Assembly (NCBI GenBank): GCA_017552435.1
Contig: JAFZPZ010000075.1
Coordinates: forward strand, 22,616 to 86,615
DNA length: 64,000 bases
Direction of reading: 5' to 3'
DNA from: Bacteroidaceae bacterium
GTDB lineage: Bacteria; Bacteroidota; Bacteroidia; Bacteroidales; Bacteroidaceae
Program-made: the position numbers and the translations under genes
Part shown: positions 1 to 63,363 of the stretch, piece after piece
Layout: each line of letters starts with the position of its first letter
Numbering within the stretch: the first letter of the stretch is position 1
The notes under the pieces: generated by a model
The model's database searches: none
The model's input: only the letters and a program-made list of their open reading frames with translations
Told to the model about the DNA's origin: nothing

Positions 1-1029
1 GATGCCACAATAAGCTTGGCCCTGACGTCAGTACCGCCGGGTTTTGTCCTGAGCAGCCTCTTTCTGGCCTCATGTTTCATCTCGCTCGCTACAGGTACCT
101 CTGTCGGTACCATTGCAGCCCTCGTCCCTATTGCCGGCAGTATGGCCGAACAGACGGGAGCCAGCACTGCGATGATGGTGGCGATTGTGGTTGGCGGAGC
201 ATACTTCGGAGACAACCTGAGCTTCATTTCCGACACGACGATTGTGGCGACACAGACGCAAGGATGCGAGATGAAGGACAAGTTCCGCGCCAACATCTGG
301 ATTGCCATGCCTGCTGCTCTCATCTGTCTGGCACTCTACGCCTGTTTGCCCGGCGTCAATGTGGAGCAGGGACATCCGGGCGAGGTTTCCTATCCTGCCA
401 TCATACCATATATATATATTATAGTGGCGGCGCTCTGCGGCATGAATGTGATGCTGGTGCTGGCTTCGGCAACGGTTCTGGCCGGTGCGATAGGCATAGT
501 TTCCGGTGCCCTGACACCTTTCGGTTGGCTGCGGGCGATGAACGACGGCATCATGGGTATGAGCGAACTCATCATCGTGACGCTCCTGGCAGCAGGCCTG
601 ATGCAGGTTATCCGTCGAGCAGGTGGTATCGACTGGCTCATGCAACTGTTCAACCGTCGCAAGGGCAGCCGCAGGAAAGCTGAATTGAGTATGGCGACGA
701 TGGTGGTGCTGACGGACTTCTGCACGGCAAACAATACGATTGCCATCCTGAGTGTCGGCCCCTTGGCGAAGCAGTTGGCCGAGCGCTACGGGATTCCTGC
801 AAAGCGGGCAGCCAGCATCCTCGATACCTTCAGCTGCTTGGCTCAGGGCATCATTCCCTACGGCGCACAGATGCTCATCGCCAGCGGACTGGCAGCCGTC
901 AATCCCCTCGACATCATCCCCTACCTCTATTATCCCTACATATTAGGAGCAGTGGCAATAGTGTATATAATAGTGGACCCCCTAACCCCCTTTAGGGGGA
1001 ATAACGTGAAAATGAAAAATGAAAAATGA
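1..1029 (+). CDS. NhaC-family Na+/H+ antiporter (5' partial)
   Basis: Inner-membrane cation antiporter, C-terminal part. The frame is open from base 1 with no convincing start (the first candidate is a TTG at 16), so the gene begins outside the window; about 340 codons are visible, whereas NhaC proteins usually have 430-460. The protein is almost entirely hydrophobic helices, with the NhaC-like segments GTSVGTIAALVPIA and GGAYFGDNLSFISDTTI near the beginning and TDFCTANNTIAI in the middle. The last dozen codons read through a GC-rich palindrome (976-999) and a heptamer repeat, so the natural C-terminus has been replaced or extended by repeat sequence. The stop overlaps the rsmG start by 11 bases. 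Family assignment is from sequence motifs and is fairly secure; ion specificity is inferred. Confidence 0.85.
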   Translation, partial: DATISLALTSVPPGFVLSSLFLASCFISLATGTSVGTIAALVPIAGSMAEQTGASTAMMVAIVVGGAYFGDNLSFISDTTIVATQTQGCEMKDKFRANIWIAMPAALICLALYACLPGVNVEQGHPGEVSYPAIIPYIYIIVAALCGMNVMLVLASATVLAGAIGIVSGALTPFGWLRAMNDGIMGMSELIIVTLLAAGLMQVIRRAGGIDWLMQLFNRRKGSRRKAELSMATMVVLTDFCTANNTIAILSVGPLAKQLAERYGIPAKRAASILDTFSCLAQGIIPYGAQMLIASGLAAVNPLDIIPYLYYPYILGAVAIVYIIVDPLTPFRGNNVKMKNEK

Positions 1030-1077
1030 AAAATTGAATGATGAAACCTATCTCCCCCTAAAGGGGGGTGGGGGGTC
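976..1077. repeat. Inverted pair of GC-rich palindromes (REPIN-like)
   Basis: Two copies of the same roughly 24-nt module, GACCCCCTAACCCCC followed by TTTAGGGGG at 976-999 and its inverted copy at 1054-1077, flank about 54 bp. Each copy is itself a short palindrome around TTTA/TAAA. The pair covers the end of the antiporter gene and the first 20 codons of rsmG, and so is translated in both. Confidence 0.85.
1012..1035. repeat. Heptamer tandem repeat (ATGAAAA)n
   Basis: About three and a half copies of ATGAAAA with exact 7-nt period. The rsmG start codon (1019) and the antiporter stop codon (1027-1029) both lie inside it. Confidence 0.85.
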
Positions 1078-10505: not shown

Positions 10506-13500
10506 TTAGTTTTTGCTGACGGAAAGTTCTGTGCCGAGGCTGATGCTGTCGGCCAATACTTGTGATGCGATATAGTCGCGGAACTTGCTGAGGCAAGTGC
10601 GGTTGTCGTCGCTGTCGGGCAGCGTGACGCTGATGCGGTCGGTTATCTCGAAGCCGCTGTCCTTGCGAAGCGTCTGAATGCTGCGGATGAGTTCGCGGGC
10701 AATGCCTTCCAGGCGCAGGTCCTCGGTGATGGTCAGGTCGAGGGCAACGGTCAGCGTGCCTTCGTTGGCAACACTCCATCCCGGGATGTCCTGGCTGAAG
10801 ATTTCGATGTCCTCGTGGTCAACGGTCACCTGTTCGCCTGTGTCGAGTGTGAGAGGCAGGTGCTCCTTGGCCTCCAGCTCGGCAATCTGCTCTTGACTCA
10901 TGGCCAGAACTGCGGCATTGACGCTCTTCATCAGTTTGCCGAACTTCTTGCCCATCGTGCGGAAGTTGCACTTCACCTGCTTGACGAGCATTCCCTGTGC
11001 TTCTACAAACTCCATCTCCTTGACGTTCACTTCGTCCAGAATGAGTTGTTGCATGGCCTGGATGCGCTGCTGCTGTTCGGCGCTGGTGGCGGGGATGGCG
11101 ATGCGCTGCAAGGGTTGCTTCACGACGATCTGCTCCTTCTTGCGGAGCGAGAGAATCATACTTGTCACCTGCTGAGCAAGTGCCATCCGCTGTTCCTGCT
11201 CCTGGTCGATCTTGGCATCGTCGTAAGTGGGGAACTTGGCCAGATGTACGCTCTTGCCGTCGCCTCTGCCGGTTGCCTCACAAAGGTCGCGCCAAAGGCG
11301 GTCGGCATAGTAGGGAGCGATGGGAGCCATGAGGCGAGCCACCGTCTCCAGGCAGGTATATAGTGTCTGGTAGGCACTCAGTTTGTCGAGGCTCATAGCA
11401 GAACCCCAGAAACGCTTCTTGCTGAGGCGCACAAACCAGTTGCTGACGTTATCTACCACGAAGGTCTGAATGAGACGACCGGCCCGTGTGGGCTCGTAGT
11501 CCTCGTAGCACTGATCCACCTCGCGGATGAGACTGTTCAGGCAAGAGAGAATCCAGCGGTCCATCTCCGGGCGCTCGTTCATCGGCACGTCCGGCTCTTC
11601 GTAGCACCAGCCATCCACGTTGGCGTACATCGTCAGGAAGGAATAGGTCTGGAAGAGCTTGCCGAAGAAGGTGCGGGTCACCTCCTGCACGCCTTCTACG
11701 TCGAATTTCAGGTTGTCCCAAGGTGCGCTGTTCGTAATCATGTACCAACGTACTGCATCGCTGCCGTACTGTTCGATGGCACCAAAGGGATCAACGGCAT
11801 TACCCAGACGCTTCGACATCTTCATGCCGTTCTTGTCCAATACGAGTCCGTTGCTGATGACTGCCTTGTAGGAAACGCTATCGAAGACCATTGTGGCAAT
11901 AGCATGCAATGTATAGAACCAGCCGCGTGTCTGGTCAACACCTTCCGCGATAAAGTCGGCGGGAAATGCTATGCCCTTGTCGAGCAGTTCCTTATTTTCG
12001 AAAGGATAATGTATCTGAGCGTATGGCATAGCGCCCGAGTCGAACCAAACGTCAATGAGGTCGAGTTCGCGCTTCAAAACGGCTCCGCTTTCACCCACGA
12101 GCCAAATCTGGTCAACGTATGGGCGGTGCAGGTCGATGCGGTCGTAGTTCTCCTGGCTCATATCGCCAGGCACGAAGCCACGTTCCTTTAATGGGTTGCT
12201 TGGCATCACGCCGGCTGCAACAGCCTTTTCTATTTCATTGTAAAGTTCCTCTACGGAACCGATGCATATCTCTTCACGAGTGTCTTTGTTGCGCCAAATT
12301 GGCAACGGAGTGCCCCAATAGCGGGAACGTGAGAGGTTCCAGTCGTTGAGGTTCTCGAGCCACTTGCCAAAGCGACCTGTACCGGTACTCTCGGGCTTCC
12401 ATAGAATAGTGTTATTGAGTTCCATCATGCGCTCCTTAGCCGCCGAAGAACGGATGAACCAGGAGTCGAGGGGATAGTAGAGGACGGGCTTGTCGGTACG
12501 CCAGCAATGGGGATAATTGTGGACGTGCTTCTCGATGCGGAAGGCTGTGCCTTCGTCTTTCATCTCGATACACATCTTCACATTGAGGTCCATCTCCTTG
12601 TTCGCTGCCTTCTCATCGTACTTTCCACCCACGTTGAACTTGGGGTCGTATGCATTCTTGACGAAGTCGCCGGAATGATGCCAATAGCTTTCATTCACGG
12701 AGGTCTGCACGAATTCGGCATCCATATCGTCCTTCACAAAATACTTGCCTGTGAAGTCAACCATAGGACGTGTATCACCAGCCTTGTCGATGATGAAGAG
12801 GCTTGGGATGCCAGCATCTTTAGCCACCTTGGCATCGTCTGCACCAAAGGTTGGAGCGATGTGTACGATGCCCGTACCGTCCTCGGTGGTAACATAGTCG
12901 CCGGGAATAACACGGAAAGCTTCTGCACTCTTATCAACAACCTTTCCGTCCTCCAAAGCACAGGGTTTTACCCAAGGGAAGAGTTGTTCGTACTTCATGC
13001 CGACAAGGTCAGTACCCTTTCCTCGCCACAGAATCTCAAGCTCCTTGCCTTCCTCTGCTTGGAAGTATGCAGAGAGGCGAGCCTCTGCCAAGATGTAGAT
13101 AGCCTCCTCGCCACTATAGGGATTGTTGCCCTTAATGGCAACATAGTCAATCTTTGGCCCAACGCAAAGGGCAGTATTCGAGGGCAAAGTCCAAGGGGTT
13201 GTCGTCCAAGCCAAAATGTAGACAGGCAGAGCCTCGGAATTTTGAATTTTGAATTTTGAATTGTTTTGAACTGTGCCGTTACCGTCGTGTCCTTCACATC
13301 GCGATAGCAGCCGGGCTGGTTCAGCTCATGACTGGAGAGGCCTGTTCCGGCAGCAGGAGAATAGGGCTGGATGGTGTAACCCTTATAAAGGAGGTCTTTC
13401 TGGTAGAGTTGCTTCAGCAGCCACCAGAGTGTCTCGATGTATTTGTTATCGTAGGTGATGTAGGGGTGTTCCATATCCACCCAATAGCCCATCTTGTGGC

Positions 13501-13909
13501 TGAGGTCGGCCCACTCGCTGGTGTACATCATCACATTCTCGCGGCACTTGCGGTTATATTCCTCGATACTGATGCTCTTGCCGATGTCTTCCTTCGTGAT
13601 GCCGAGTTCCTTCTCTACACCAAGTTCTACAGGGAGTCCATGTGTGTCCCAACCGGCTTTACGCTTCACTAGGAAGCCCTTCATCGTCTTGAAGCGGCAG
13701 AAGGTGTCCTTGATGCTGCGTGCCAGGACATGATGAATGCCTGGGTGACCGTTTGCAGATGGGGGACCTTCGTAGAAGATGAACGAGGGACATCCCTCTC
13801 GTTCGGACATGCTCAGATGGAATACATCTTCGGCATCCCATTGCTGCAGCACTTCCTTGTTGACATCGCTTAGGTTGAGCTTGTCGCGTTCGGTGAATTT
13901 TATGCTCAT
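10506..13909 (-). CDS. ileS: Isoleucyl-tRNA synthetase IleS, reading frame broken by a heptamer repeat
   Basis: Charges tRNA-Ile; essential in bacteria. The N-terminal part (start ATG 13909, MSIKFTERDKLNLSDV) carries the class I HIGH-type motif NGHPGIHH; the C-terminal part carries the editing domain (AWTTTPWTLPSNTALCVG), KMSKR (MKMSKRLGN) and the anticodon-binding domain (RLSKKRFWG). The two parts are in different frames: the N-terminal frame is correct up to about TVTAQFK (13272) and the C-terminal frame from about ALPVYILAWTTT (13235). Between them lies a (GAATTTT)n repeat, 13237-13264. One more 7-nt unit (or two fewer) would rejoin the frames. Either an assembly or population copy-number variant, or a real frameshift. 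No second ileS is visible in the window. Confidence 0.9.
13237..13270. repeat. Heptamer tandem repeat (GAATTTT)n inside ileS
   Basis: Three perfect GAATTTT units (13237-13257) followed by a degenerate GAATTGT unit. It lies in the variable loop between the catalytic core and the editing domain, exactly where the ileS frame changes. Confidence 0.9.
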
Positions 13910-19086: not shown

Positions 19087-22000
19087 TTATCTTGTCAGCG
19101 AGAACTTCATTGTCATACCGAAGTCCTGCGTAATCGTAGGATAGCTGCTGCTGGAAAGAAGGGGCTCTGAACGCTGACGGTCGTAGAAAAGGCTCAGGGT
19201 AACCATTCGGCTCATGGTGTAATCTACTTGAGCACTTGTCTTGATGGCCATATTACCGCTGGTAGCTTCGCAAAGGTTTGTCTGCAGGTCACGCTTGATG
19301 GCGCTTTGGTTGCGGATGCTGAAGTCGAAGCGAAGATTCAGGTCGTGGGCTATCTTTTGCTTGGAACCACTTCTTCCACTCTGTGTGGCAGCATTGCTGT
19401 TTTCCCTTTCATTGGAGTTAGGAGTTTTACCCTTTGCTTTAGTGTTTTTTGCTACTTGCTCGCTGGCTTTCTTGCTACGTAAAAGGCTGGATAGGTTGAA
19501 ATCATTGATCTTATAGCCCCAACCGATGACGAAATCCTTGGAGCCTGTCTCGGTAAGTTGTGCACTGGTCATGCTCAGGTTGAGCACACGTGTAGTCTTG
19601 TACTCCAACTTGAACGTCATGTTGTTGTTGAGGGTGGCGTTGAGGCCGATGAGGGGCGAGAAGCTTTCGTTGATGCTGACGGTGCTGACATCATACAGGC
19701 TGTTGGGCGAGTAGGAACCGGAGGTGGTGTTCTGTATGAAACCTAATCCGCCTGTGCCCATGCACTCTACCCAAGAACTGTAGGAATTGTAGGAGCCTAC
19801 AGCGTAAATGCTCTTGTAGGCGTGTGTTAGGTTGACACTCTTGAAGTGGTCACGAACCCAGGGCAGGGTACTCAGACCTTTGTAGTTGATACTCCAGTTA
19901 GGCAGCATTTTGAGGAGTGAAGGGAAGATGTCGAGCGATCCGCTTGTGCCGCCACCGGTATAGGCGGCAAGGAATGCAGGAACCATGACATCGGCGCTGT
20001 ATTTGTTGACGGTGCCGTTCTCCGGGTTGAACGTGCCGTTTATGCCGGTTCCGGCGGGATACTGCACACCTTGGTAGCGGCTTTCTACGCGCTGCTGGTA
20101 GACGTCTAGATATTCGCGGAACTTTTGGAATGTCTTGTTGTAATAGCCGTCGCTGGCTGAACCCGGGCTGGCGAAGGCAGAGCCGATACTGATGGTTGTC
20201 ATGTTGAAAGAACCACTATGTGTGGGTGGTGTGCCGTACATGTATTGGATGCTCTTGTTGCGGTTGTCGGTACGACTCATATTGAGATCGATCTTGAAGT
20301 CGGAGAAGGGCTCCAATGTCATTTTTACCTGCACGTCTTCTGTTTGGGCAATCGTTGCTGGTGTGGCAACACTATCGCTGCCGATGAGCCATCCGCGTTC
20401 TTTTGCGTGATCCAGATATGAGTCGCCCACAAAACCGAATGCAAAGTCAACGCCTGGGGTGAACATTCCGTTCATCCGTTTCTGACCGAGCATGTCGCCG
20501 ATTTCAGGCAGGAATCCGGGAACAGAGAGGTTGTAGGTGTTGCGGTAGCTGATGCTGACGTTGCGTACCATCATCAGGAAGCGTGCTGCAGTTTGTGCCA
20601 GGCCGTACCAATTCTGCTCCGACAACTTTGGAAGGGCCACTACATTCAGGCGCACATTGGTCGTGTCAACTGGTGTCTTGACAATGCGGATGTTGTTCTC
20701 GTCCACCTTCTTGAATTTGATGTTGTATGCAAAGCCGCTACTGTCGCGCGCAGTAACTCGGATGCGCTTGGATTTCTGTCCGTGGGCGATGACGAGGTCG
20801 GAGTCGGGATAAAGCGTAATCTCCTGCACGAAACCCTTGTTTTCGGGTTTTTTCTTCGTGCTGATGCCAGCAGCGTTGCTTTGCTTGCCTGGCAGGTTCT
20901 GTCCCTTACCCTTAGCCAGGATGCTATCCACGGGCTCGCCCGTTTCCATCGACTCCTGTTCCGCTTTCTTGCGGTTATCTTTTTCCTTCTCCTTGGCCGC
21001 CTTCTTGGCCTTGTTCTCATTCTCCTTTTCTGTACGTTTCTGGTTGGCTCCGGCACGGGCATTGGCAGCAGAGAATCGTTTGTTTGCTTCCCGTAGGAAA
21101 GGACTGTGGTTGTAGAGCTTCTCCAAGTCGAGCTTACCGTTTACGTTGATATTGCGTTGCGTACCGATGGTGTTGCCGAGTGAAGGACGGCCAACTCTTT
21201 CTGCGCCACGTTTCCACGTATAGTTGGAAGTATAGGAGATGTCACTGGAAGTCCAGTCGAGAGCTGGAATCTTCTCCAATGGAATCTTGTAACTGATTTG
21301 TACATTTTGGCTGTAATCGAGGGGACGCCCAAAGTGGAGCAGGCTATGTTTCACGGAGTCCTTCCAGGCCTGGTAATGATCTGGATAGAGGTCTTTGTTG
21401 ATTTGCGTGTATGGCTCTTCTATCTCGGCCCTAGTACCGCTCTGGAAAGAGAAGTGCAGCGCCTTGAAGATATCCCACTTGAGCGAGAAGTTACGGTTCC
21501 ATGTCCAGTTCTGGCTGAATGTGGCGGGCAGAGAGGAGAGGTCGTCCGGATTCTCCAAGTCGCGTTCCTGCAATTCGTAGTAGTTGCGGTTCATGTCGGT
21601 AGAGAACGTAATGCTCTGCGGCGCGAATGCGAGGTTCTGTGCCTTGATGATGTCCAGCCATTTGCTTTTGCCTTTGAGGTTCTTGAAAGGCTCCCAGGCT
21701 TTCCAATTGGGGCTCCATGAGTAGTTTATATTGGCCTTCCAATTCAACTCATGCTCATAGACGGTTGTCTCGCCTTCAGTGGATTGTGTGGAGCGGCTAT
21801 ATCCAAAGGTGAAGTTGGCGGGGTCGTAGGGCATCGGGTGCTTAGGTGTGCTGATGTTGAGCCGAACACCGCTGAAAGAGAGGTTCTTGCTGGTCTCGGT
21901 GTGTGTGGTGAGGCTGCGCAAAGAGTCGCGCTGATGATCGTCGGCCAGAGCATCGAATGCATCGTCCAGAAGCATGTCTGTATCGAAGGGATTGTACTTG

Positions 22001-25000
22001 GGCGAGATCTTCTCCTTGCTGTAGCTGTAGTACATTGGGAAGGTAAGCTTTGCTTTCTCGGGAAGGAGACGTCCAAGGTCGAAGTTTGTGGTGATGGAGT
22101 AATTGAGATTGTCTTCGTTCTTGCGTTGTTCCACGCTCTGTTCGATGCCGCCAAAGCCAGCGGTGATGATCTTGGCCGAAGCATTGACCGAACCTAGGTC
22201 GGAGAGCTGAACCTGCAGGTTGCCTTGTGCTGCCCAACCGCCGCTGTTGCTGAATTCCTGCAGTCGGAGCTCGTTGGCCCAAACTTCCACGCTCTTTGTC
22301 TTACCGCTGTTATTGCGTATGCCTATCATGATGGTCTTTACCTCGCCCAACGTGGGATTACCCATGATGGAAATGCGGTTGTTGGGGTGGTTGTCATCGT
22401 AGGTCGAGAAGAGGCGGTTCATTGCGGCAACACCGATGCTTGCTTGGGAATTGCGTTGCTTCTTGAGCGACGTGAAGATGTCGAAGTTGATGTCGATCAT
22501 GTTCTCCGAGGGCCATACAGCCAGACAGCCGTTTGCGCTGTATGTGTCGTAGTATCCTTCCGGCGTGAGTTTCAAGGGCACCTCGTACTCGTAGTAATTG
22601 CTCTTGTAGTCCGATCCAAGTCGGATGAAGACGCTGCATTCACCGTCGGTGGTCGATGTGATGTTCTCGGCGAGGGCATTGGCGTGGACGTACATCTGCA
22701 GGTGCTTGTACTGTCGCATGTCATAGTTGCAGTTCTTATAGACGGCCTTTGATTCGTTCCCGGAGAGGTTGCGAGCCACCATGCACATGGCCTGTTCGTT
22801 GGCTTCCACAAGTTGAGCCTGCGACGGGTCTGTGATACGGGTGATTCCAGGAGGCAGGACGTAGTTGACGGGTTTCTTGTCGTTGTTTTCCTCGATGCAG
22901 ACGGTGCTTACTTCCAGCGTTCCGCTCTCGCCAGTATGTGCTTCGCCCGAGTAAAGGGGCTGCTGGTAGGTGCGCCAGTTGCCTTGTACCAGGTCGAGTG
23001 TGGCAAGTCGTAGGACGGTCTCTTCGCGGAAGCCAGTCATGAAGATACGCATGAAGCGGATACTCGTAAAGTCACGGATATTGCCTTCCTTGCTCTCATA
23101 TTCTTCCAGGGGGATGCGGAAGAGATACCAAGTACACTCTTCGGTGTTTCCGTTGCGCAGTTTGACGCTTGCCGTTCGCATATCGGCGATGTGGTTGCGG
23201 CCGACAACCATGTCCTCCGGACGGATGCTGACGTGATACTGGTAGTATTTCTCGTATTCGTTCAGGGTGTAGTCCTGATTGATGTCCTCGACGTCTGGTG
23301 TTACCTTCCAGGCGGTCTCGTAGGCTTCCGGTCTGGTGTCGGAGTCGGCGCTGTTGCCCTGAGGCATGTTGATGCGCTTGTAGCGGTTCAGAATCGACAT
23401 CTGAAGATTGTCGAAGTCTGTGCCCCGATAGTAGTGGTAGTTGTCGTTGGCAGGGTCGTTGTAAATGCTGTCGAAAACGGTTTGCGAAACCTTTCCCTGC
23501 ATCTGCTGTATGTAGTTGGCATAAAGCCCGAAGTTACGTTCTTCTTCGTCATTGAGGCCGTTCAGGCCGACGTCTTGTTTTGCGCGCGCGCCTCCTTCGT
23601 TATTGAAGGCGTAGGTCACGCTGCTACTGTTAGGAATGCGGCCCCAGTATCCCTCGGTGTAGTATTGTGGGTTGCCGTCCACAGGCATTCCGCTTTCGAA
23701 GAATTTCTTGCCGTCCTTGAGGATATCTTCCGACACTTCACCCAGATTGAAGTAGAGGTCGCCGCCGTGATCGCCTGGCTGGTTATGCTTGTAGATGAAT
23801 GGGTCCATCATCCAGAACTCGATATACTCGATGTTCTGTGCTTCGAAGTCCGTGTTGTCGAGTTTGCGCATCATGCCGCCCCACGATTCTTCGGGGTGCA
23901 GGAGGTGACCGTTTTGGTCAACGTCTGTCGTGAGGTTGTAGGGACCTCGTTCCTGCGGATAGAAGGCGAGGTTCAGTACATTAAGTCCGCTCGTGCTTGT
24001 GTAGGTGTTCAGAGACTTTTGCGGGTAGAGCTCGCGTTCATATACTTCACGTACGTAGTGGCTGGAGAGTTGTTCTAGGTCGCTTTTGATGTGTGAAGGC
24101 GTAAGGGTACTGCTGCGGCGTGTAAAGATGGGGTCAACATAGTACCACGCCAGCAACGAGCGGTTGTATCCGTATGTGGCATCTGCTGTCAATTTGCTTT
24201 CGGCAAACATGCTCGGCGTGCTGGAGATGCTCCAGTAGGTGGGCTGTGTCAGGCTGCTCTTGATGCTGCTGCTCTCGAAATCGTCCAGATAGGAGGCATC
24301 TCCCTGAACGCTATGATTCTGTCCTGCAACCAGTTGTGCAAACTCGCCGTTAAAGGAGATAAAGCTGGGCTGTGTGCATTGGATGAGGGGTAATTTGTCA
24401 ATGATGTTGGTGAGCCATTGACTTTCCTTTTTCCAGCTGATATGGAGGCCCCACAGCGTGTTCTTCAGCGGTTCGTTGCCCATGCTGACCTTTGTGGTGA
24501 GCGGTTGTTCGCTCAGGTACATGAGTGTTCCGCCGATGGTGAAGTTCTTGTTGATTTCGTAATCCACATTAAAACCGAGCATCGTCTTGCGTTGCATGCC
24601 GTAGGTATCGTTGCTTTCTACGGAGGCGCTGATGTTGGTGCCGGCATCCAGTAGGCTCTGGTTGATGATGGTCACGCGCCCCATGTTGTAGTCTACGGTG
24701 TAATCGGTGTTTTCTGTGAGCGTTGTTCCGCCGGCGGTGACGATGACGGAGCCTCTTGCTACGTTTGTGACACCCAGGTCGATTTCGCCGGCATTGGTAC
24801 CCTTGTAGCGTCCCGTCAGCATGAATTTGTCGTGCTCTGCAATCTGTTTTGCGACCGTCTTGGTGCTGTCGTAGAGTTCACGGAAGCAGTATTTGTCGGC
24901 CAGAACGGGGTCGCCAATCCATTTCGCCAGGTGTTCGCCGAAGGGTTCGACTACGGGGAAGATGATGCGTCCTTTGCTGATGGTGTATCCTTCCACGAAG

Positions 25001-26922
25001 TCAAACTGACCGTTCGGGTGCTCATTATTCTTTGCATCCAGGCGGTCCAGGTTCATGGCTCTCAGGAGTATGGTGTTCTTGAGGCTCTCTTCGGGCAGGT
25101 AGCTCAGGTAAACGCCTGTCGAGTCGCTTTGGTACTTGATGTCGAGGCGGAATTTGTCGCTCATCACTCTCTGCGTGCCCAGATAATAGACATTCTTCAT
25201 CATCAGGCGCCATGTTGGCAGAATCGGACTGCCGGAAGTGCCCTTCAACAGTTTGACGAAGAGTGCTTTCGAGTTGTCTGTGAGGTCGCTGGCGAATTCA
25301 CCCACCTGATAGGTCGTTCCCATGTAGGTGTATTCGTAGGCAACGGCCAGGACATCATCGACTTGCAGGGTGCTGGAGAGGCTGACATAACCTAGGGCGT
25401 TGTTGACGGTATATTCGCTGGTGGCGAGCTTTCGTGCAGACTGCAGTTTCTCATAGTCAATGCTACCGTGGAATTCATCTCCGCCTCCGATACCGTCCAG
25501 GACGGTTGTGGCCTGTGAGATGTCACGCGCATCGGGATAACTGTTGACGAGGGTCTCGTACTCGTCGTTCGAGCGGTTGCTGGGCACGTTGATGCCATTG
25601 TTTATCCATAGGCCATTGTAGATGTAGGTCGGTTCGCCCAGGTCGGCCAAAGCGATGAGGTTGCGGTTGTTGTCGGTCTTGCCGCTCTTGTTGGTGACCC
25701 AGATCTCGACGCGCTTGATGTTGATACCGCTGGAGATTGTAGGTAGCGTCTCCATGTTCTTGTCGTACTTCTCGCGGAAGAAGTGCGAGAGGAAGAAGTG
25801 CCGGTTCTCTTCGTAGTTCGTTGCGCTGAATTCGTAGTTGGTGGTTTGCGCGCCGCCTTTGCTGTTGACGCTGCTGGTGGCACTCTTCTTCTGGCTGACA
25901 ACCGACTGGATCTTCAGCTTTCCGAACTGCACGTCTGTACGCAAGCCGAAAAGGCTGCTGACGCCTGGCACGAGGCTGATGTTACTGGGGAAGGAGACAT
26001 TGCCGGCCTCGATGAGCTTGACGATTTCGTCCTCTTTACCGTCGTATTTGAGCTTGAGGTTCTGTTGGTCGTAGTTGAAGGTGGCCTGGGTGTTATAGTT
26101 CAGGTTCAGGTTGATCTTGTCGCCCACTTTACCGTTCAGGCTGAGGTTGATTTTTTCGTCGAAGTCGAATCCGACGGTCTTGCGGCGCGAAGCGGCCAGG
26201 GCAGGGTTGTTTACCTTTTTTGAGTTGATGCCTATTTTGAGTTCGGCACTGCCCTGTGTCTTGATTTGTACACCGCCAGGACCGAAAATCTTCTCTGCCG
26301 GTCCCAGGTCGAAGTGCATGTCGGTAAAGTCGAACTTGTTCTTTCCCGATGTCTCGAAGGCCTCCTCGTTCTTTTGCTTCCAGTACTGTTGCATACTGTT
26401 TTGCAACGACCATTTCTGGTATTCCTCGGGTGTCATCAGTACCGGAGCATTCAGGAAGCTGGTTGCTGTACCCAGGGTGTAGCCGGACCTGCCCGGCAGA
26501 AGGCTGCCGGAGGTGGCTCCTGCTGCGCCAGTCGAAGAGGCTTGTCCCGTTGTGCTTTGGTTCCGGGTGCCGGTATTTCTGTTGGTGCTTGCGCTCTTGC
26601 TGGCACCTTGACCTTTTCCGGTGGTTTCACCGGAATTGGAAAACGAAGTGCCGATTGTGTAGGTGTTGTCCTTCTCGTCGTAGATGACTTCGGTCTTCAG
26701 GTTGTCCGGGTCATTCAGGTCGGCTGTCTTCTTGCGAACGGACTTCTCGTCCGGAGTACCGGTCTTGCGAACCGAGTAGCGAGGCTTACCGTTAGTGACA
26801 GTATCAGCCGGAGCAACAGACTCATTTGCCATTGATCGTTGACCATTGACCATTCCCATTGCTCCCAGCATATTGATGGCCAGCAGAATCGCTAGAACTA
26901 ATATGACTTTTCGCGCGCTCAT
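19087..26922 (-). CDS. sprA: T9SS outer-membrane translocon SprA (Sov)
   Basis: 2611 residues, the giant 36-strand outer-membrane barrel that forms the type IX secretion pore. Characteristic segments: SLLPGRSGYTLGTATSFLNAPV, TPEEYQKWSLQNSM, FDLGPAEKIFGPGGVQIKTQGSAELKIGIN, LNLNYNTQATFNYDQQNLK, and the C-terminal RMVTLSLFYDRQRSEPLLSSSSYPT ending in an aromatic/basic strand. An internal Lys/Glu-rich stretch near residues 1950-2010 is a surface or periplasmic insert. N-terminal signal anchor MSARKVILVLAILLAINMLG is followed by residues MVNGQRSMAN encoded by heptamer repeats. It lies next to ruvA, as in other Bacteroidetes. It is needed to export the sorting-domain proteins seen elsewhere in this window. 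Confidence 0.97.
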   Translation of the reverse strand: MSARKVILVLAILLAINMLGAMGMVNGQRSMANESVAPADTVTNGKPRYSVRKTGTPDEKSVRKKTADLNDPDNLKTEVIYDEKDNTYTIGTSFSNSGETTGKGQGASKSASTNRNTGTRNQSTTGQASSTGAAGATSGSLLPGRSGYTLGTATSFLNAPVLMTPEEYQKWSLQNSMQQYWKQKNEEAFETSGKNKFDFTDMHFDLGPAEKIFGPGGVQIKTQGSAELKIGINSKKVNNPALAASRRKTVGFDFDEKINLSLNGKVGDKINLNLNYNTQATFNYDQQNLKLKYDGKEDEIVKLIEAGNVSFPSNISLVPGVSSLFGLRTDVQFGKLKIQSVVSQKKSATSSVNSKGGAQTTNYEFSATNYEENRHFFLSHFFREKYDKNMETLPTISSGINIKRVEIWVTNKSGKTDNNRNLIALADLGEPTYIYNGLWINNGINVPSNRSNDEYETLVNSYPDARDISQATTVLDGIGGGDEFHGSIDYEKLQSARKLATSEYTVNNALGYVSLSSTLQVDDVLAVAYEYTYMGTTYQVGEFASDLTDNSKALFVKLLKGTSGSPILPTWRLMMKNVYYLGTQRVMSDKFRLDIKYQSDSTGVYLSYLPEESLKNTILLRAMNLDRLDAKNNEHPNGQFDFVEGYTISKGRIIFPVVEPFGEHLAKWIGDPVLADKYCFRELYDSTKTVAKQIAEHDKFMLTGRYKGTNAGEIDLGVTNVARGSVIVTAGGTTLTENTDYTVDYNMGRVTIINQSLLDAGTNISASVESNDTYGMQRKTMLGFNVDYEINKNFTIGGTLMYLSEQPLTTKVSMGNEPLKNTLWGLHISWKKESQWLTNIIDKLPLIQCTQPSFISFNGEFAQLVAGQNHSVQGDASYLDDFESSSIKSSLTQPTYWSISSTPSMFAESKLTADATYGYNRSLLAWYYVDPIFTRRSSTLTPSHIKSDLEQLSSHYVREVYERELYPQKSLNTYTSTSGLNVLNLAFYPQERGPYNLTTDVDQNGHLLHPEESWGGMMRKLDNTDFEAQNIEYIEFWMMDPFIYKHNQPGDHGGDLYFNLGEVSEDILKDGKKFFESGMPVDGNPQYYTEGYWGRIPNSSSVTYAFNNEGGARAKQDVGLNGLNDEEERNFGLYANYIQQMQGKVSQTVFDSIYNDPANDNYHYYRGTDFDNLQMSILNRYKRINMPQGNSADSDTRPEAYETAWKVTPDVEDINQDYTLNEYEKYYQYHVSIRPEDMVVGRNHIADMRTASVKLRNGNTEECTWYLFRIPLEEYESKEGNIRDFTSIRFMRIFMTGFREETVLRLATLDLVQGNWRTYQQPLYSGEAHTGESGTLEVSTVCIEENNDKKPVNYVLPPGITRITDPSQAQLVEANEQAMCMVARNLSGNESKAVYKNCNYDMRQYKHLQMYVHANALAENITSTTDGECSVFIRLGSDYKSNYYEYEVPLKLTPEGYYDTYSANGCLAVWPSENMIDINFDIFTSLKKQRNSQASIGVAAMNRLFSTYDDNHPNNRISIMGNPTLGEVKTIMIGIRNNSGKTKSVEVWANELRLQEFSNSGGWAAQGNLQVQLSDLGSVNASAKIITAGFGGIEQSVEQRKNEDNLNYSITTNFDLGRLLPEKAKLTFPMYYSYSKEKISPKYNPFDTDMLLDDAFDALADDHQRDSLRSLTTHTETSKNLSFSGVRLNISTPKHPMPYDPANFTFGYSRSTQSTEGETTVYEHELNWKANINYSWSPNWKAWEPFKNLKGKSKWLDIIKAQNLAFAPQSITFSTDMNRNYYELQERDLENPDDLSSLPATFSQNWTWNRNFSLKWDIFKALHFSFQSGTRAEIEEPYTQINKDLYPDHYQAWKDSVKHSLLHFGRPLDYSQNVQISYKIPLEKIPALDWTSSDISYTSNYTWKRGAERVGRPSLGNTIGTQRNINVNGKLDLEKLYNHSPFLREANKRFSAANARAGANQKRTEKENENKAKKAAKEKEKDNRKKAEQESMETGEPVDSILAKGKGQNLPGKQSNAAGISTKKKPENKGFVQEITLYPDSDLVIAHGQKSKRIRVTARDSSGFAYNIKFKKVDENNIRIVKTPVDTTNVRLNVVALPKLSEQNWYGLAQTAARFLMMVRNVSISYRNTYNLSVPGFLPEIGDMLGQKRMNGMFTPGVDFAFGFVGDSYLDHAKERGWLIGSDSVATPATIAQTEDVQVKMTLEPFSDFKIDLNMSRTDNRNKSIQYMYGTPPTHSGSFNMTTISIGSAFASPGSASDGYYNKTFQKFREYLDVYQQRVESRYQGVQYPAGTGINGTFNPENGTVNKYSADVMVPAFLAAYTGGGTSGSLDIFPSLLKMLPNWSINYKGLSTLPWVRDHFKSVNLTHAYKSIYAVGSYNSYSSWVECMGTGGLGFIQNTTSGSYSPNSLYDVSTVSINESFSPLIGLNATLNNNMTFKLEYKTTRVLNLSMTSAQLTETGSKDFVIGWGYKINDFNLSSLLRSKKASEQVAKNTKAKGKTPNSNERENSNAATQSGRSGSKQKIAHDLNLRFDFSIRNQSAIKRDLQTNLCEATSGNMAIKTSAQVDYTMSRMVTLSLFYDRQRSEPLLSSSSYPTITQDFGMTMKFSLTR
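26829..26860. repeat. Heptamer tandem repeat in the sprA N-terminus
   Basis: CCATTGA, TCGTTGA, CCATTGA, CCATTCC: four degenerate units translated just after the signal segment of SprA. Confidence 0.75.
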
Positions 26923-27006
26923 GTCTTAATATTAACGTATGCGCCACATAATTTATTGTATTAATAGCAGTATTTCTGCATGTTTTTGTCGATTTTGCCA
27001 AATCTT

Positions 27007-27034
27007 TAACCATTAACCATTAACCATTAACCAT
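27007..27034. repeat. Heptamer tandem repeat (TAACCAT)4
   Basis: Four perfect units in the 178-bp divergent interval between sprA and ruvA, directly upstream of the ruvA -7 element. Confidence 0.9.
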
Positions 27035-27041
27035 TATTTCG

Positions 27042-27049: not shown

Positions 27050-27060
27050 CAAAAATATTT

Positions 27061-27096
27061 CTTAACTCTTAATTCTTAATTTTAATTCTTAATTCA
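27061..27096. repeat. Heptamer tandem repeat (CTTAATT)n
   Basis: CTTAACT, CTTAATT, CTTAATT, TTAATT, CTTAATT: five units, one shortened by a base, forming most of the ruvA leader. Confidence 0.8.
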
Positions 27097-27100
27097 ATAC

Positions 27101-27703
27101 ATGATTGAATATCTCAAAGGAACTCTTGCCGACCTCACGCCCACTCTTGCTGTTGTCGAGTGTCATGGGGTAGGGTATGGCGTAAATATCTCCCTGAATA
27201 CTTTTTCTGCCATCCAGGGCAAACAGGAGGTGAAACTGTGGATTAGCGAGTCGATTCGTGAGGATGCCTACCAGCTCTGGGGCTTCAGCACTCGGGCCGA
27301 GCGCGAGCTTTTCGTGCTCCTTACGAGTGTGAGCGGCATCGGCGCAAGTACCAGCCGCGTGATTCTCTCATCTATGACTGTTTCTGAACTGGCGGGCGTT
27401 ATCAGCGAGGGAAACGACAAGATGCTCAAGTCGGTAAAAGGTATAGGTCCGAAAGCCGCACAGCGCATTATTGTTGACCTCCGCGACAAGATTGGCTCTC
27501 TTGGCATCCAGGCAGCATCGCCTTCAATGGTCAATGGTCAATGTTCAATGATTAATAAGGAAGTGATGGACGAAGCTGTCGCAGCTCTCACGATGCTTGG
27601 ATTCAGCCCTGCTCCTGTCCACAAAGCCGTTCAGCATATACTTACCGAAGAGCCCGATGCACCCGTCGAGCGCGTCATCAAACTGGGCTTGAAAATGCTG
27701 TAA
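27101..27703 (+). CDS. ruvA: Holliday junction branch migration protein RuvA
   Basis: 200 residues; tetramer that binds Holliday junctions and loads the RuvB motor. Domain I (OB fold) begins [28 protein letters not shown]; domain II has the helix-hairpin-helix segments [18 protein letters not shown] and [21 protein letters not shown]; domain III (RuvB contact) ends [17 protein letters not shown]. The flexible linker between domains II and III (about residues 141-152, [12 protein letters not shown]) is encoded by five heptamer units, a place where extra residues are tolerated. Divergent from sprA, and followed by cysQ on the same strand. Confidence 0.96.
27523..27557. repeat. Heptamer tandem repeat inside ruvA
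   Basis: TTCAATG, GTCAATG, GTCAATG, TTCAATG, ATTAATA: five units. Related units occur on the opposite strand in sprA (26829) and before cysQ (27740). Confidence 0.85.
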
Positions 27704-27739: not shown

Positions 27740-27774
27740 TTTTCAATTTTCAATTCTCAATGTTCAATGTTCAA
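27740..27774. repeat. Heptamer tandem repeat containing the cysQ start codon
   Basis: TTTTCAA, TTTTCAA, TTCTCAA, TGTTCAA, TGTTCAA: five units. The ATG at 27767 is formed at the junction of the last two units. Confidence 0.9.
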
Positions 27775-28576
27775 TCTCCTAAATCTTGCCGTCGCTGCTG
27801 CTCTTGAAGCCGGAGCCGAGATTATGCGCATTTATCTCGACCCCAAGCAGGATTTTGGAATAGAGAAAAAAGCTGACAATAGTCCTCTGACGCTTGCCGA
27901 CAAGGCTGCACATAACTGCATCGTTCGTCACCTCGCTCCGACCAATATTCCCATCCTGAGCGAGGAGGGTGCTCATCTGCCCTACGAAGAGCGGCGGAAG
28001 TGGCATCGGCTTTGGGTGGTTGACCCGCTCGACGGCACCAAAGAGTTTATCAAGAAGAATGGCGAGTTTACCGTCAATATTGCCCTTGTGGAAGACGGTT
28101 CGCCCATCCTAGGCGTCATCTATGTCCCTGCAACCGAAGTCCTTTATACCGCCATCGTAGGAGAAGGAGCCTGGAAAGCCCCCTTCCCGCTCCCCCCCTT
28201 GGGGAGTGATTCAAAGAGTGAGTGCCGTGAAGAGAATATAATGGCACTCCCCAAAAGGGGGAGCGGGGAGGGGGCTTTTACTGTTGTTGCCAGCCGTTCC
28301 CATATGAATCCCGAGACTGAAGAATTTGTTGAAAATCTACGAAAAATCCACGACAATGTCGAACTCATCAGCAGCGGTAGCAGCCTGAAGATCTGTCTCG
28401 TTGCAGAAGGTACCGCCGATGTCTATCCACGTTTTGCTCCCACGATGGAGTGGGATACCGCAGCCGGTGATGCCATTGCCCGCGCAGCCGGCCGGAAAGT
28501 CACCGATGCCCAAACAGGACAACCCCTTACCTACAACAAACCCGACCTCCACAACCCCTGGTTCATCGTAAGTTGA
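27767..28576 (+). CDS. cysQ: 3'(2'),5'-bisphosphate nucleotidase CysQ
   Basis: 269-residue inositol-monophosphatase-fold enzyme that hydrolyses 3'-phosphoadenosine 5'-phosphate to AMP in sulfate assimilation. Metal-binding motifs: KADNSPLTLADKAAH (about 36-50), LSEEGAH with the catalytic Glu (65-72), VVDPLDGTKEF (84-94) and the C-terminal MEWDTAAGDAI. Li+/Mg2+-dependent in relatives. Residues about 138-170 (PLPPLGSDSKSE... LPKRGSGEGAF) are an in-frame palindrome pair inserted in a surface loop, making the protein slightly longer than usual. The start codon lies inside a heptamer repeat. Confidence 0.92.
   Translation: MFNLLNLAVAAALEAGAEIMRIYLDPKQDFGIEKKADNSPLTLADKAAHNCIVRHLAPTNIPILSEEGAHLPYEERRKWHRLWVVDPLDGTKEFIKKNGEFTVNIALVEDGSPILGVIYVPATEVLYTAIVGEGAWKAPFPLPPLGSDSKSECREENIMALPKRGSGEGAFTVVASRSHMNPETEEFVENLRKIHDNVELISSGSSLKICLVAEGTADVYPRFAPTMEWDTAAGDAIARAAGRKVTDAQTGQPLTYNKPDLHNPWFIVS
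28178..28275. repeat. Inverted pair of GC-rich palindromes inside cysQ
   Basis: Arms at 28178-28208 (CCCTTCCCGCTCCCCCC then TTGGGGAGTG) and 28245-28275 (CACTCCCCAAAAGGGGG then AGCGGGGAGGGGG), near-exact reverse complements about 36 bp apart. The reading frame is kept throughout. Confidence 0.85.
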
Positions 28577-49917: not shown

Positions 49918-49945
49918 AAGTGAAAAGTGAAAAGTGAAAAGTGAA
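49918..49945. repeat. Heptamer tandem repeat (AAGTGAA)4
   Basis: Four perfect units directly upstream of the SRP RNA promoter, between divergent transcription units. Confidence 0.9.
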
Positions 49946-50004
49946 AAATATTTGCTTTACGAGTTTTTTTGCCGTTAATACATTATTTATATGGCTTTTT
50001 TTCG

Positions 50005-58768: not shown

Positions 58769-58805
58769 GCCTACGTCGCGGAATATGCCACTTCGTCAAA
58801 TAATT

Positions 58806-58840
58806 GTGAATTATGAATTGTCAATTGTCAATTATCAATA
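58806..58840. repeat. Heptamer tandem repeat containing a start codon
   Basis: GTGAATT, ATGAATT, GTCAATT, GTCAATT, ATCAATA: five units. The ATG of the next gene is the start of the second unit, and its first nine codons are repeat sequence. Confidence 0.9.
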
Positions 58841-62870: not shown

Positions 62871-63352
62871 CACGGGAGATATTCATAACCTACGTGGAGT
62901 GTGAGCAGGAGGCACTTCGGGGCTTCTTGCTCGCCCTCTGCTGTGGCAACAAGGACGAAGCCGACGACCTGGCGCAGGACGCGCTGGTCAAGGCCTACCT
63001 CTCCTCGTCGGGCTATCAGGAAAAGGGCCGCTTCCGCTCGTGGCTCTTCAAGATTGCCCACAACACGTTCCTCAACCACAAGGCAAGCCAGAAGACGACG
63101 ATAAGCATCGACGATGCTCGCGTCCAGTCACTCCCCCTCGGGGGAGACGAAGGGGGGCTTCATCAGGACCTCTACCTCGCACTGCGCACCCTGCCGCCCA
63201 AAGAACGCTCCGCCATCACGCTCTTCTATTTGAGTGGGTACAGCGTCAAAGAGATTGCCCAGATTACCGACATCTCAGAGGCTGCCGTCAAGCAGCAGCT
63301 CTCGCGGGGGCGCGACAAGCTACGAAAGCAATTGACAATTGATAATGGATAA
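62867..63352 (+). CDS. ECF RNA polymerase sigma factor
   Basis: 161 residues, GTG start at 62867 overlapping the preceding stop (GTGA). Region 2: EALRGFLLALCCGNKDEADDLAQDALVKAYLS, FRSWLFKIAHNTFLNHKA; region 4: LPPKERSAITLFYLSGYSVKEIAQITDISEAAVKQQLSRGRDKL. The linker between them contains a palindrome-derived insert (SLPLGGDEGGLHQ), a place where extra residues do no harm. The stop codon lies in a heptamer repeat (63329-63356). Flanked by two membrane proteins, one of which probably regulates it. Confidence 0.92.
   Translation: MTREIFITYVECEQEALRGFLLALCCGNKDEADDLAQDALVKAYLSSSGYQEKGRFRSWLFKIAHNTFLNHKASQKTTISIDDARVQSLPLGGDEGGLHQDLYLALRTLPPKERSAITLFYLSGYSVKEIAQITDISEAAVKQQLSRGRDKLRKQLTIDNG
63129..63158. 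repeat. GC-rich palindrome inside the sigma factor gene
   Basis: CACTCCCCCTCGGGGGAG then ACGAAGGGGGG, in frame between sigma regions 2 and 4. Confidence 0.75.
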
Positions 63353-63356
63353 TTGA
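63329..63356. repeat. Heptamer tandem repeat (CAATTGA)n over a stop codon
   Basis: CAATTGA, CAATTGA, TAATGGA, TAATTGA: four units; the sigma factor stop (63350-63352) is in the last one. Confidence 0.85.
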
Positions 63357-63363
63357 AATTGGT

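Follow-up and report, generated by a model that had tools for sequence, protein, structure and literature searches.

The Rickettsia palindromic elements (RPE; Ogata et al. 2000, as summarized in the review PMC10969869) are ∼150 bp long and encode a conserved peptide. The repeats described below resemble RPE, as the review presents them, in being short, dispersed and carried in frame by unrelated genes at tolerated positions (the hosts of RPE being metabolic genes). They differ from RPE in that the inserts are shorter and belong to several unrelated kinds (arrays of heptamers, arrays of nonamers and several palindromes), and in that the kind found in a given loop differs between species; RPE are compared here by description. 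A dispersed family with many copies is present, as judged by counts of the palindrome and of (AAAATTC)3, and in-frame inserts occur in conserved genes and are absent in homologues (the IleRS loop, a stretch of TilS and the RuvA linker). The size of ∼150 bp is not seen: whole ileS loops have 42–138 nt.

Another described group is that of heptanucleotide repeats, among them TAACTGA (PMC4679880, with five Bacteroidetes listed), the G-rich heptamers of Xanthomonas and Nostoc (PMC4692102) and GGACCGG of Geobacter (PMC2700814). According to a survey cited in PMC4679880, heptanucleotides outnumbered the other long repeats in most of the genomes it covered. In the accounts given there, the Xanthomonas and Nostoc heptamers are under-represented in ORFs (PMC4692102) and the Geobacter elements also occur within genes (PMC2700814). 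To the extent that these sources describe them, the known repeats share with ours the period of 7, a few units per site, many sites per genome and a sporadic distribution among phyla; a genome-wide excess of period 7 over other periods was observed here as well. By the same accounts, however, they are mostly intergenic, with one or a few unit sequences per genome, whereas the present genome combines many unit sequences, and ORFs contain 19 of the 45 arrays sampled, some of these in loops of housekeeping enzymes. Among the titles and abstract beginnings listed in searches of open-access literature, none reported such repeats inside IleRS, RuvA, TilS or coding genes of Bacteroidales. This silence is weak evidence of novelty; it looks as if heptamer arrays and palindromes combined in coding loops are new as a combination.

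Phase-variable contingency loci are usually dispensable genes. Like them, the ileS locus described here has within its coding region a repeat unit of a length not divisible by three, so that one unit more or less switches the frame. It is different in that ileS is essential; its off state, therefore, is not selectable as a switch.

The window (the whole stretch of 64,000 nt that was analyzed, from contig JAFZPZ010000075.1 of an uncultured gut bacterium of the Bacteroidaceae) contains an ileS gene in two parts that lie in different frames (Table 1). Codons upstream of the break read ...TAQF KTIQNSKFKI..., and the conserved continuation, ...EALPVYILAWTTTPWTLP..., is in a different frame. For the N-terminal ORF we placed the start at 13909, on the first codon of MSIKF; past the array this ORF continues out of frame to its stop at 12995. 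Both frames are open across 12998–13325. In the profile search of the genome the two TIGR00392 matches abut at the array (C97:35856-36503 and C97:33682-35871), with the C-terminal part matching profile positions 207–858 at 713.6 bits (window 11067–13256). The ORF-level scan by TIGR00392 also identified both ORFs as ileS, the C-terminal part at profile positions 226–858. Since the homology of both parts meets there, the frame change is located at the heptamer array, exactly where an earlier note on this DNA had put it.

Table 1. Features of the window (nt positions; +, forward strand; −, reverse strand)
Feature	Position	Strand	Details
Palindromic element GACCCCCTAACCCCCTTTAGGGGG...CCCCCTAAAGGGGG...GGGGTC with AAAATGA heptamer array inside	976..1077	.	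Na+/H+ antiporter-rsmG/gidB junction
ileS, C-terminal part, other frame	10506..13325	−	Open 10509-13325 plus stop; homology from ∼13256
ileS, N-terminal part	12995..13909	−	TIGR00392 profile 3-217, window 13241-13888
Heptamer array (GAATTTT)3.7	13237-13262	−	Tandem Repeats Finder: period 7, 26 nt, 100% matches
Sole A_AAA codon in the overlap permitting identical −1 re-pairing	13249	−	Inside the array; computed, use by the ribosome putative
7.8-kb open reading frame	19090-26925	−
More period-7 arrays, other units, some near or in genes	27006-27036, 27059-27095, 27740-27775, 49918-49947, 58802-58839, 63329-63361		Tandem Repeats Finder
ruvA	27101..27703	+	TIGR00084, 193 bits, cut-off 85
In-gene array TCAATGG, in frame	27524..27543	+	RuvA linker between HHH_5 and RuvA_C

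On the coding strand the unit of the ileS array is CAAAATT. By computation, its 21-nt superperiod holds no stop on this strand and one stop on the other; the array can therefore be read through in every phase, always as the heptapeptide QNSKFKI. Because 7 nt is not a multiple of three, one unit gained or lost throws the gene out of frame. The anchors flanking the array are 107 nt apart, i.e. 2 mod 3, and one additional unit or two fewer bring the spacing to 0 mod 3, in agreement with what the earlier note had calculated for restoring the frame. Each half is open without an additional stop. Values of omega (NG86, comparison with eight relatives) were 0.013–0.026 for the N-terminal part and 0.024–0.048 for the C-terminal part, at dS of 0.8–1.8, which is near saturation. 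The low omega after the break indicates that the C-terminal part is translated. Each half thus matches TIGR00392 and is under strong purifying selection. An old ileS pseudogene was ruled out, omega being too low in both halves for a long-broken gene.

The ileS locus was found in 129 of the 139 genomes of the genus, its own included. We retrieved 123 loci of relatives, leaving out five genomes with weak matches (G031, G095, G096, G124 and G129). All 122 readable loci were in frame (115 of 115 by anchors and seven by eye), and the sole unreadable one, L130, is interrupted by a contig end. Named loci gave the same picture, with 78 of 80 readable and all of these in frame, many being evidently contigs identical to those of the 123; these named relatives are metagenome-assembled genomes (MAGs), labelled mostly Bacteroidaceae, Prevotellaceae or Bacteroidales, and many, to judge by their titles, come from the ruminant gut. 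Among readable relatives of the genus, the window alone has ileS out of frame. Heptamer arrays as such are not exceptional in the gene, since two relatives carry perfect ones in frame (32 nt in L119 and 31 nt in L068).

The loop that holds the array comes directly ahead of the editing-domain motif WTTTPWTLP and tolerates long and unrelated sequence. Placed by sequence alignment to the solved IleRS 8c8w, whose version has few residues in total (about nine fewer than that of L131), it is probably a surface turn. Across the genus the loop measures 42–138 nt from TAQF to LAWTTTPW, and whole loops are unlike among species. The span of the matching fragment is near constant in several genera other than that of the window (627 in 12 of the 12 members of g20 listed and 624–630 in the 12 of g9 listed); among the matches listed it varies from 561 to 657 in the window's own genus, g14, g19 and g21.

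We parsed 120 loops, the window included (the in-frame L117, L121 and L128 fell outside the pattern of the script), and compared each with 300 Markov shuffles. At p ≤ 0.01, where ∼1.2 loops per category are expected by chance, period 7 was found in 20 loops, period 9 in 12 and inverted repeats in 13, with L039 and L078 counted in two categories; the weaker period-7 loops have exact runs of merely 12–13 nt. Neither period 6 nor period 8 was significant in any of the 120. A family of nonamer (NNL-type) arrays occupies the loops of L008, L010, L015, L016, L023, L027, L031 and L042; such arrays are frame-neutral, as 9 is a multiple of three.

A quick tree built from the flanks, in which 41 of the 117 inner branches are unresolved, requires 27 or more changes of loop type; shuffled labels gave a mean of 40.5. 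Well-supported branches alone force 10 heptamer, 6 palindrome and 4 nonamer changes. The clustering of the labels on the tree means that part of the loop content is inherited; the pairs L073/L088 and L059/L075 have retained their loops. L112 and L113 have flanks 97.1 and 95.7% identical, yet the loop holds a palindrome in one and a heptamer array in the other. Unlike loops were also seen in L027/L056 (flanks 93.8 and 93.8%) and L036/L054 (95.6 and 89.2%).

Period 7 stands out well beyond ileS. We counted exact arrays (at least 12 matched bases) in 371 kb of the genome's own sequence, a sample of 21 sequences of which five had been chosen for carrying an AAAATTC array. There were 45 arrays at period 7, 12 at period 14 and 13 at period 21; every other period from 2 to 20 had five or fewer. 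A single order-1 Markov simulation produced no array at period 7, and with at most five at unrelated periods the excess is not due to chance. Unselected sequence alone had 22 period-7 arrays in 214 kb (10.3 per 100 kb). Densities per 100 kb were 9.4 in the window, 10.6 in G103, 3.1 in G091 and 3.8 in G099; no period-7 array was present in 200 kb each (400 kb in total) of G143 and G292, which represent two other genera and have a lower G+C content (0.36–0.37 vs 0.50). Of the 45 arrays, 19, including that of ileS, lie within ORFs called by a simple greedy rule; as ORFs make up 92% of the sample, arrays are depleted in genes, though far from absent. The exact sequence (AAAATTC)3 has eight matches at seven places in the window's own genome, G000. 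It is found in 24 of 139 genomes (one of the 18 of best quality), with up to 33 matches per genome, and its reversed control had no match in any of the 139.

A palindrome is dispersed as well. The element near the start of the window forms the C-terminal tail of the Na+/H+ antiporter ORF, overlaps the start of the rsmG/gidB ORF and, judged by eye, belongs to the family of palindromes found in ileS loops of relatives. We searched with the 72-nt palindrome from the ileS loop of G090; matches numbered at least 68 in G000, at least 88 in G090 itself, at least 71 in G051, at least 21 in G021, at least 71 in G128 and at least 61 in G007, where one place may match on both strands and many of the matches listed are half-elements. 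There were none in G143 and G292, of other genera. Tandem half-palindromes, spaced at 30 and 44 bases, were observed at G090:C44:42-129, G051:C124:5203-5316 and G051:C11:63092-63205; such tandems may reveal how the element multiplies.

Eight other arrays of the same genome, five of them on loci chosen for carrying arrays, are spanned by a family-model match in one frame. Their hosts are FolC, an NtrC-like regulator (Pfam domains flank the array, and the NCBIfam score is under the ntrC cut-off), an RND membrane-fusion protein (score just under the model cut-off), TilS, Mfd, GH32, RuvA and an AcrB-like pump. In the RuvA linker, inspected by eye in the 30 best-matching genomes, the window has heptamers, L243 and L251 have heptamer-like repeats, and L250 and L265 have CCCCC...GGGG pieces; the repeat is a partial replacement of the linker at near-equal length. 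In the loop of TilS, inspected likewise in the 30 best, the window's genome, L301, L305, L310 and L313 have heptamers, whereas L311 has a palindrome. This loop is 36 nt or shorter in 14 of these 30 genomes (L320 and L326 were mis-parsed), and a stretch of ∼23 residues is missing from many of the TilS matches listed. One TilS fragment (G008:C53:70098-70427) has an internal TAG, the only such case among the matches listed.

Six pairs of close ORFs on the same strand were found at arrays. As a sign of general frame errors, other split genes at arrays were rejected for three of the six pairs, which are different genes by family (window 1009, L233 1742 and L225 9246). For the pairs at L231 8789 and L231 15731 the family match is missing for both members or for one, and the sixth, L234 12602, was outside the pairwise family scan. 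The earlier note had presented the split ileS as an isolated oddity; its array belongs to a set of heptamer arrays and palindromes that occupy coding loops throughout this genome and, to a varying degree, throughout the genus.

We tentatively suggest that in this genus coding loops are actively invaded by self-copying heptamer arrays and small palindromes. A few tolerant sites, such as those in IleRS, RuvA and TilS, would serve as landing pads, with their content exchanged among close species; owing to period 7, essential genes would constantly bear some load of one-unit frameshifts, ileS being one example. An array with a stop-free 21-nt superperiod could land in any phase, so that its length alone would have to fit. 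As a guess, repeats may arrive at new sites by microhomology-driven template switching.

It seems rather unlikely that the repeats of ileS loops are instead products of local slippage in unconstrained sequence, with no mobile or dispersed element involved. Local slippage would suit the differences in unit between period-7 arrays of the loops, many of which are imperfect, the restriction of exact (AAAATTC)3 to a minority of genomes, and the stronger clustering of loop types on the tree than of shuffled labels. It fits poorly with the recurrence of the same units at many sites (seven places for (AAAATTC)3, none for its reversed control) and with a palindrome that has from at least 21 to at least 88 matches in each of six genomes of the genus and none in two of other genera.

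As to the frame of ileS, we consider the assembled gene to be a one-unit length variant of the array, either real in the population or made by sequencing or assembly, with a probability of about 0.72. In a rough division, an artefact is a serious possibility, and a real minority or recent allele is a somewhat lesser one. A slip of one unit, in the population or in the data, would be the cause, and working cells would carry an in-frame number of units. With the same heptapeptide in every phase, only the total length of the array would have to fit the frame, and each one-unit slip would break the gene. Two considerations count against a length variant: an array of 26 nt fits within ordinary short reads, so that it should not simply collapse in assembly, and the allele that an assembler reports is normally that of the majority, which ought to be functional. 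On the same side stand the three ORF pairs at L231 8789, L231 15731 and L234 12602. One scan of viral_contigs for the junction found nothing, which says little. Among the three options raised by the earlier note, a variable or mis-assembled repeat number, whichever of the two applies, is best supported.

It is improbable that ileS is truly out of frame and that full-length IleRS is made by −1 frameshifting or transcriptional slippage, for example at the A_AAA inside the array. Conservation of both halves, the open overlap and this one A_AAA are compatible with such a route, and corrective slippage at long poly(A) runs, as reported from endosymbionts (PMC5009743), is a precedent for its transcriptional form. 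Still, no A run in the array exceeds 4, and the marks of programmed −1 frameshifting are absent, with no X_XXY_YYZ slippery heptamer in 12998–13325 and the break in none of the 122 readable relatives, none of which needs a frameshift; the eight other in-gene arrays with a family match are in frame as well. Production of the full-length enzyme by frameshifting, one of the options offered by the note, has no positive support.

Quite improbable, too, is an intact second ileS in an unassembled or unbinned part of the genome, with the present copy decaying. Room for one exists, as the assembly (3,502,846 bases in 129 contigs, 4.5% contamination) is only 87.9% complete. Profile searches with TIGR00392 and PF00133 in these 3.50 Mb, from which ∼12% of the genome may be missing, found no second ileS; the observation that no second copy is seen, made for the window, now extends to the whole assembly, and the existence of another ileS is unsupported. 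The remaining class-I matches are ValRS on C11, LeuRS on C52 and MetRS on C123, the latter two judged from truncated ORFs. Across the genus, each genome has one full ileS locus among the matches listed in the DNA search, at times in two pieces, and the other matches listed are short repeat matches. Moreover, omega in both halves is as low as for a working gene, with no further stop.

A two-polypeptide IleRS with a re-initiated C-terminal part, as in naturally split synthetases such as the LeuRS of Aquifex, would place its break in a tolerant loop just before the editing-domain motif, as found, but is highly improbable and was ruled out: the downstream piece has no ATG at its start (the first start listed is TTG, the Leu codon of ILAW), the upstream stop at 12995 is ∼220 nt past that TTG, which means no translational coupling, and no readable relative is split.

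The out-of-frame ileS is of low interest by itself; the landing-pad pattern is what raises it. One-unit errors in such arrays could create false pseudogenes in MAGs, which calls for caution. An essential gene whose frame is broken by a repeat offers a natural test of the rate at which arrays slip and of the way in which cells survive this. Loop repeats that are kept in frame provide comparative data, from more than 120 species for ileS and from several genes, on the entry of short repeats into proteins, a question that was raised by the Rickettsia palindromic elements.
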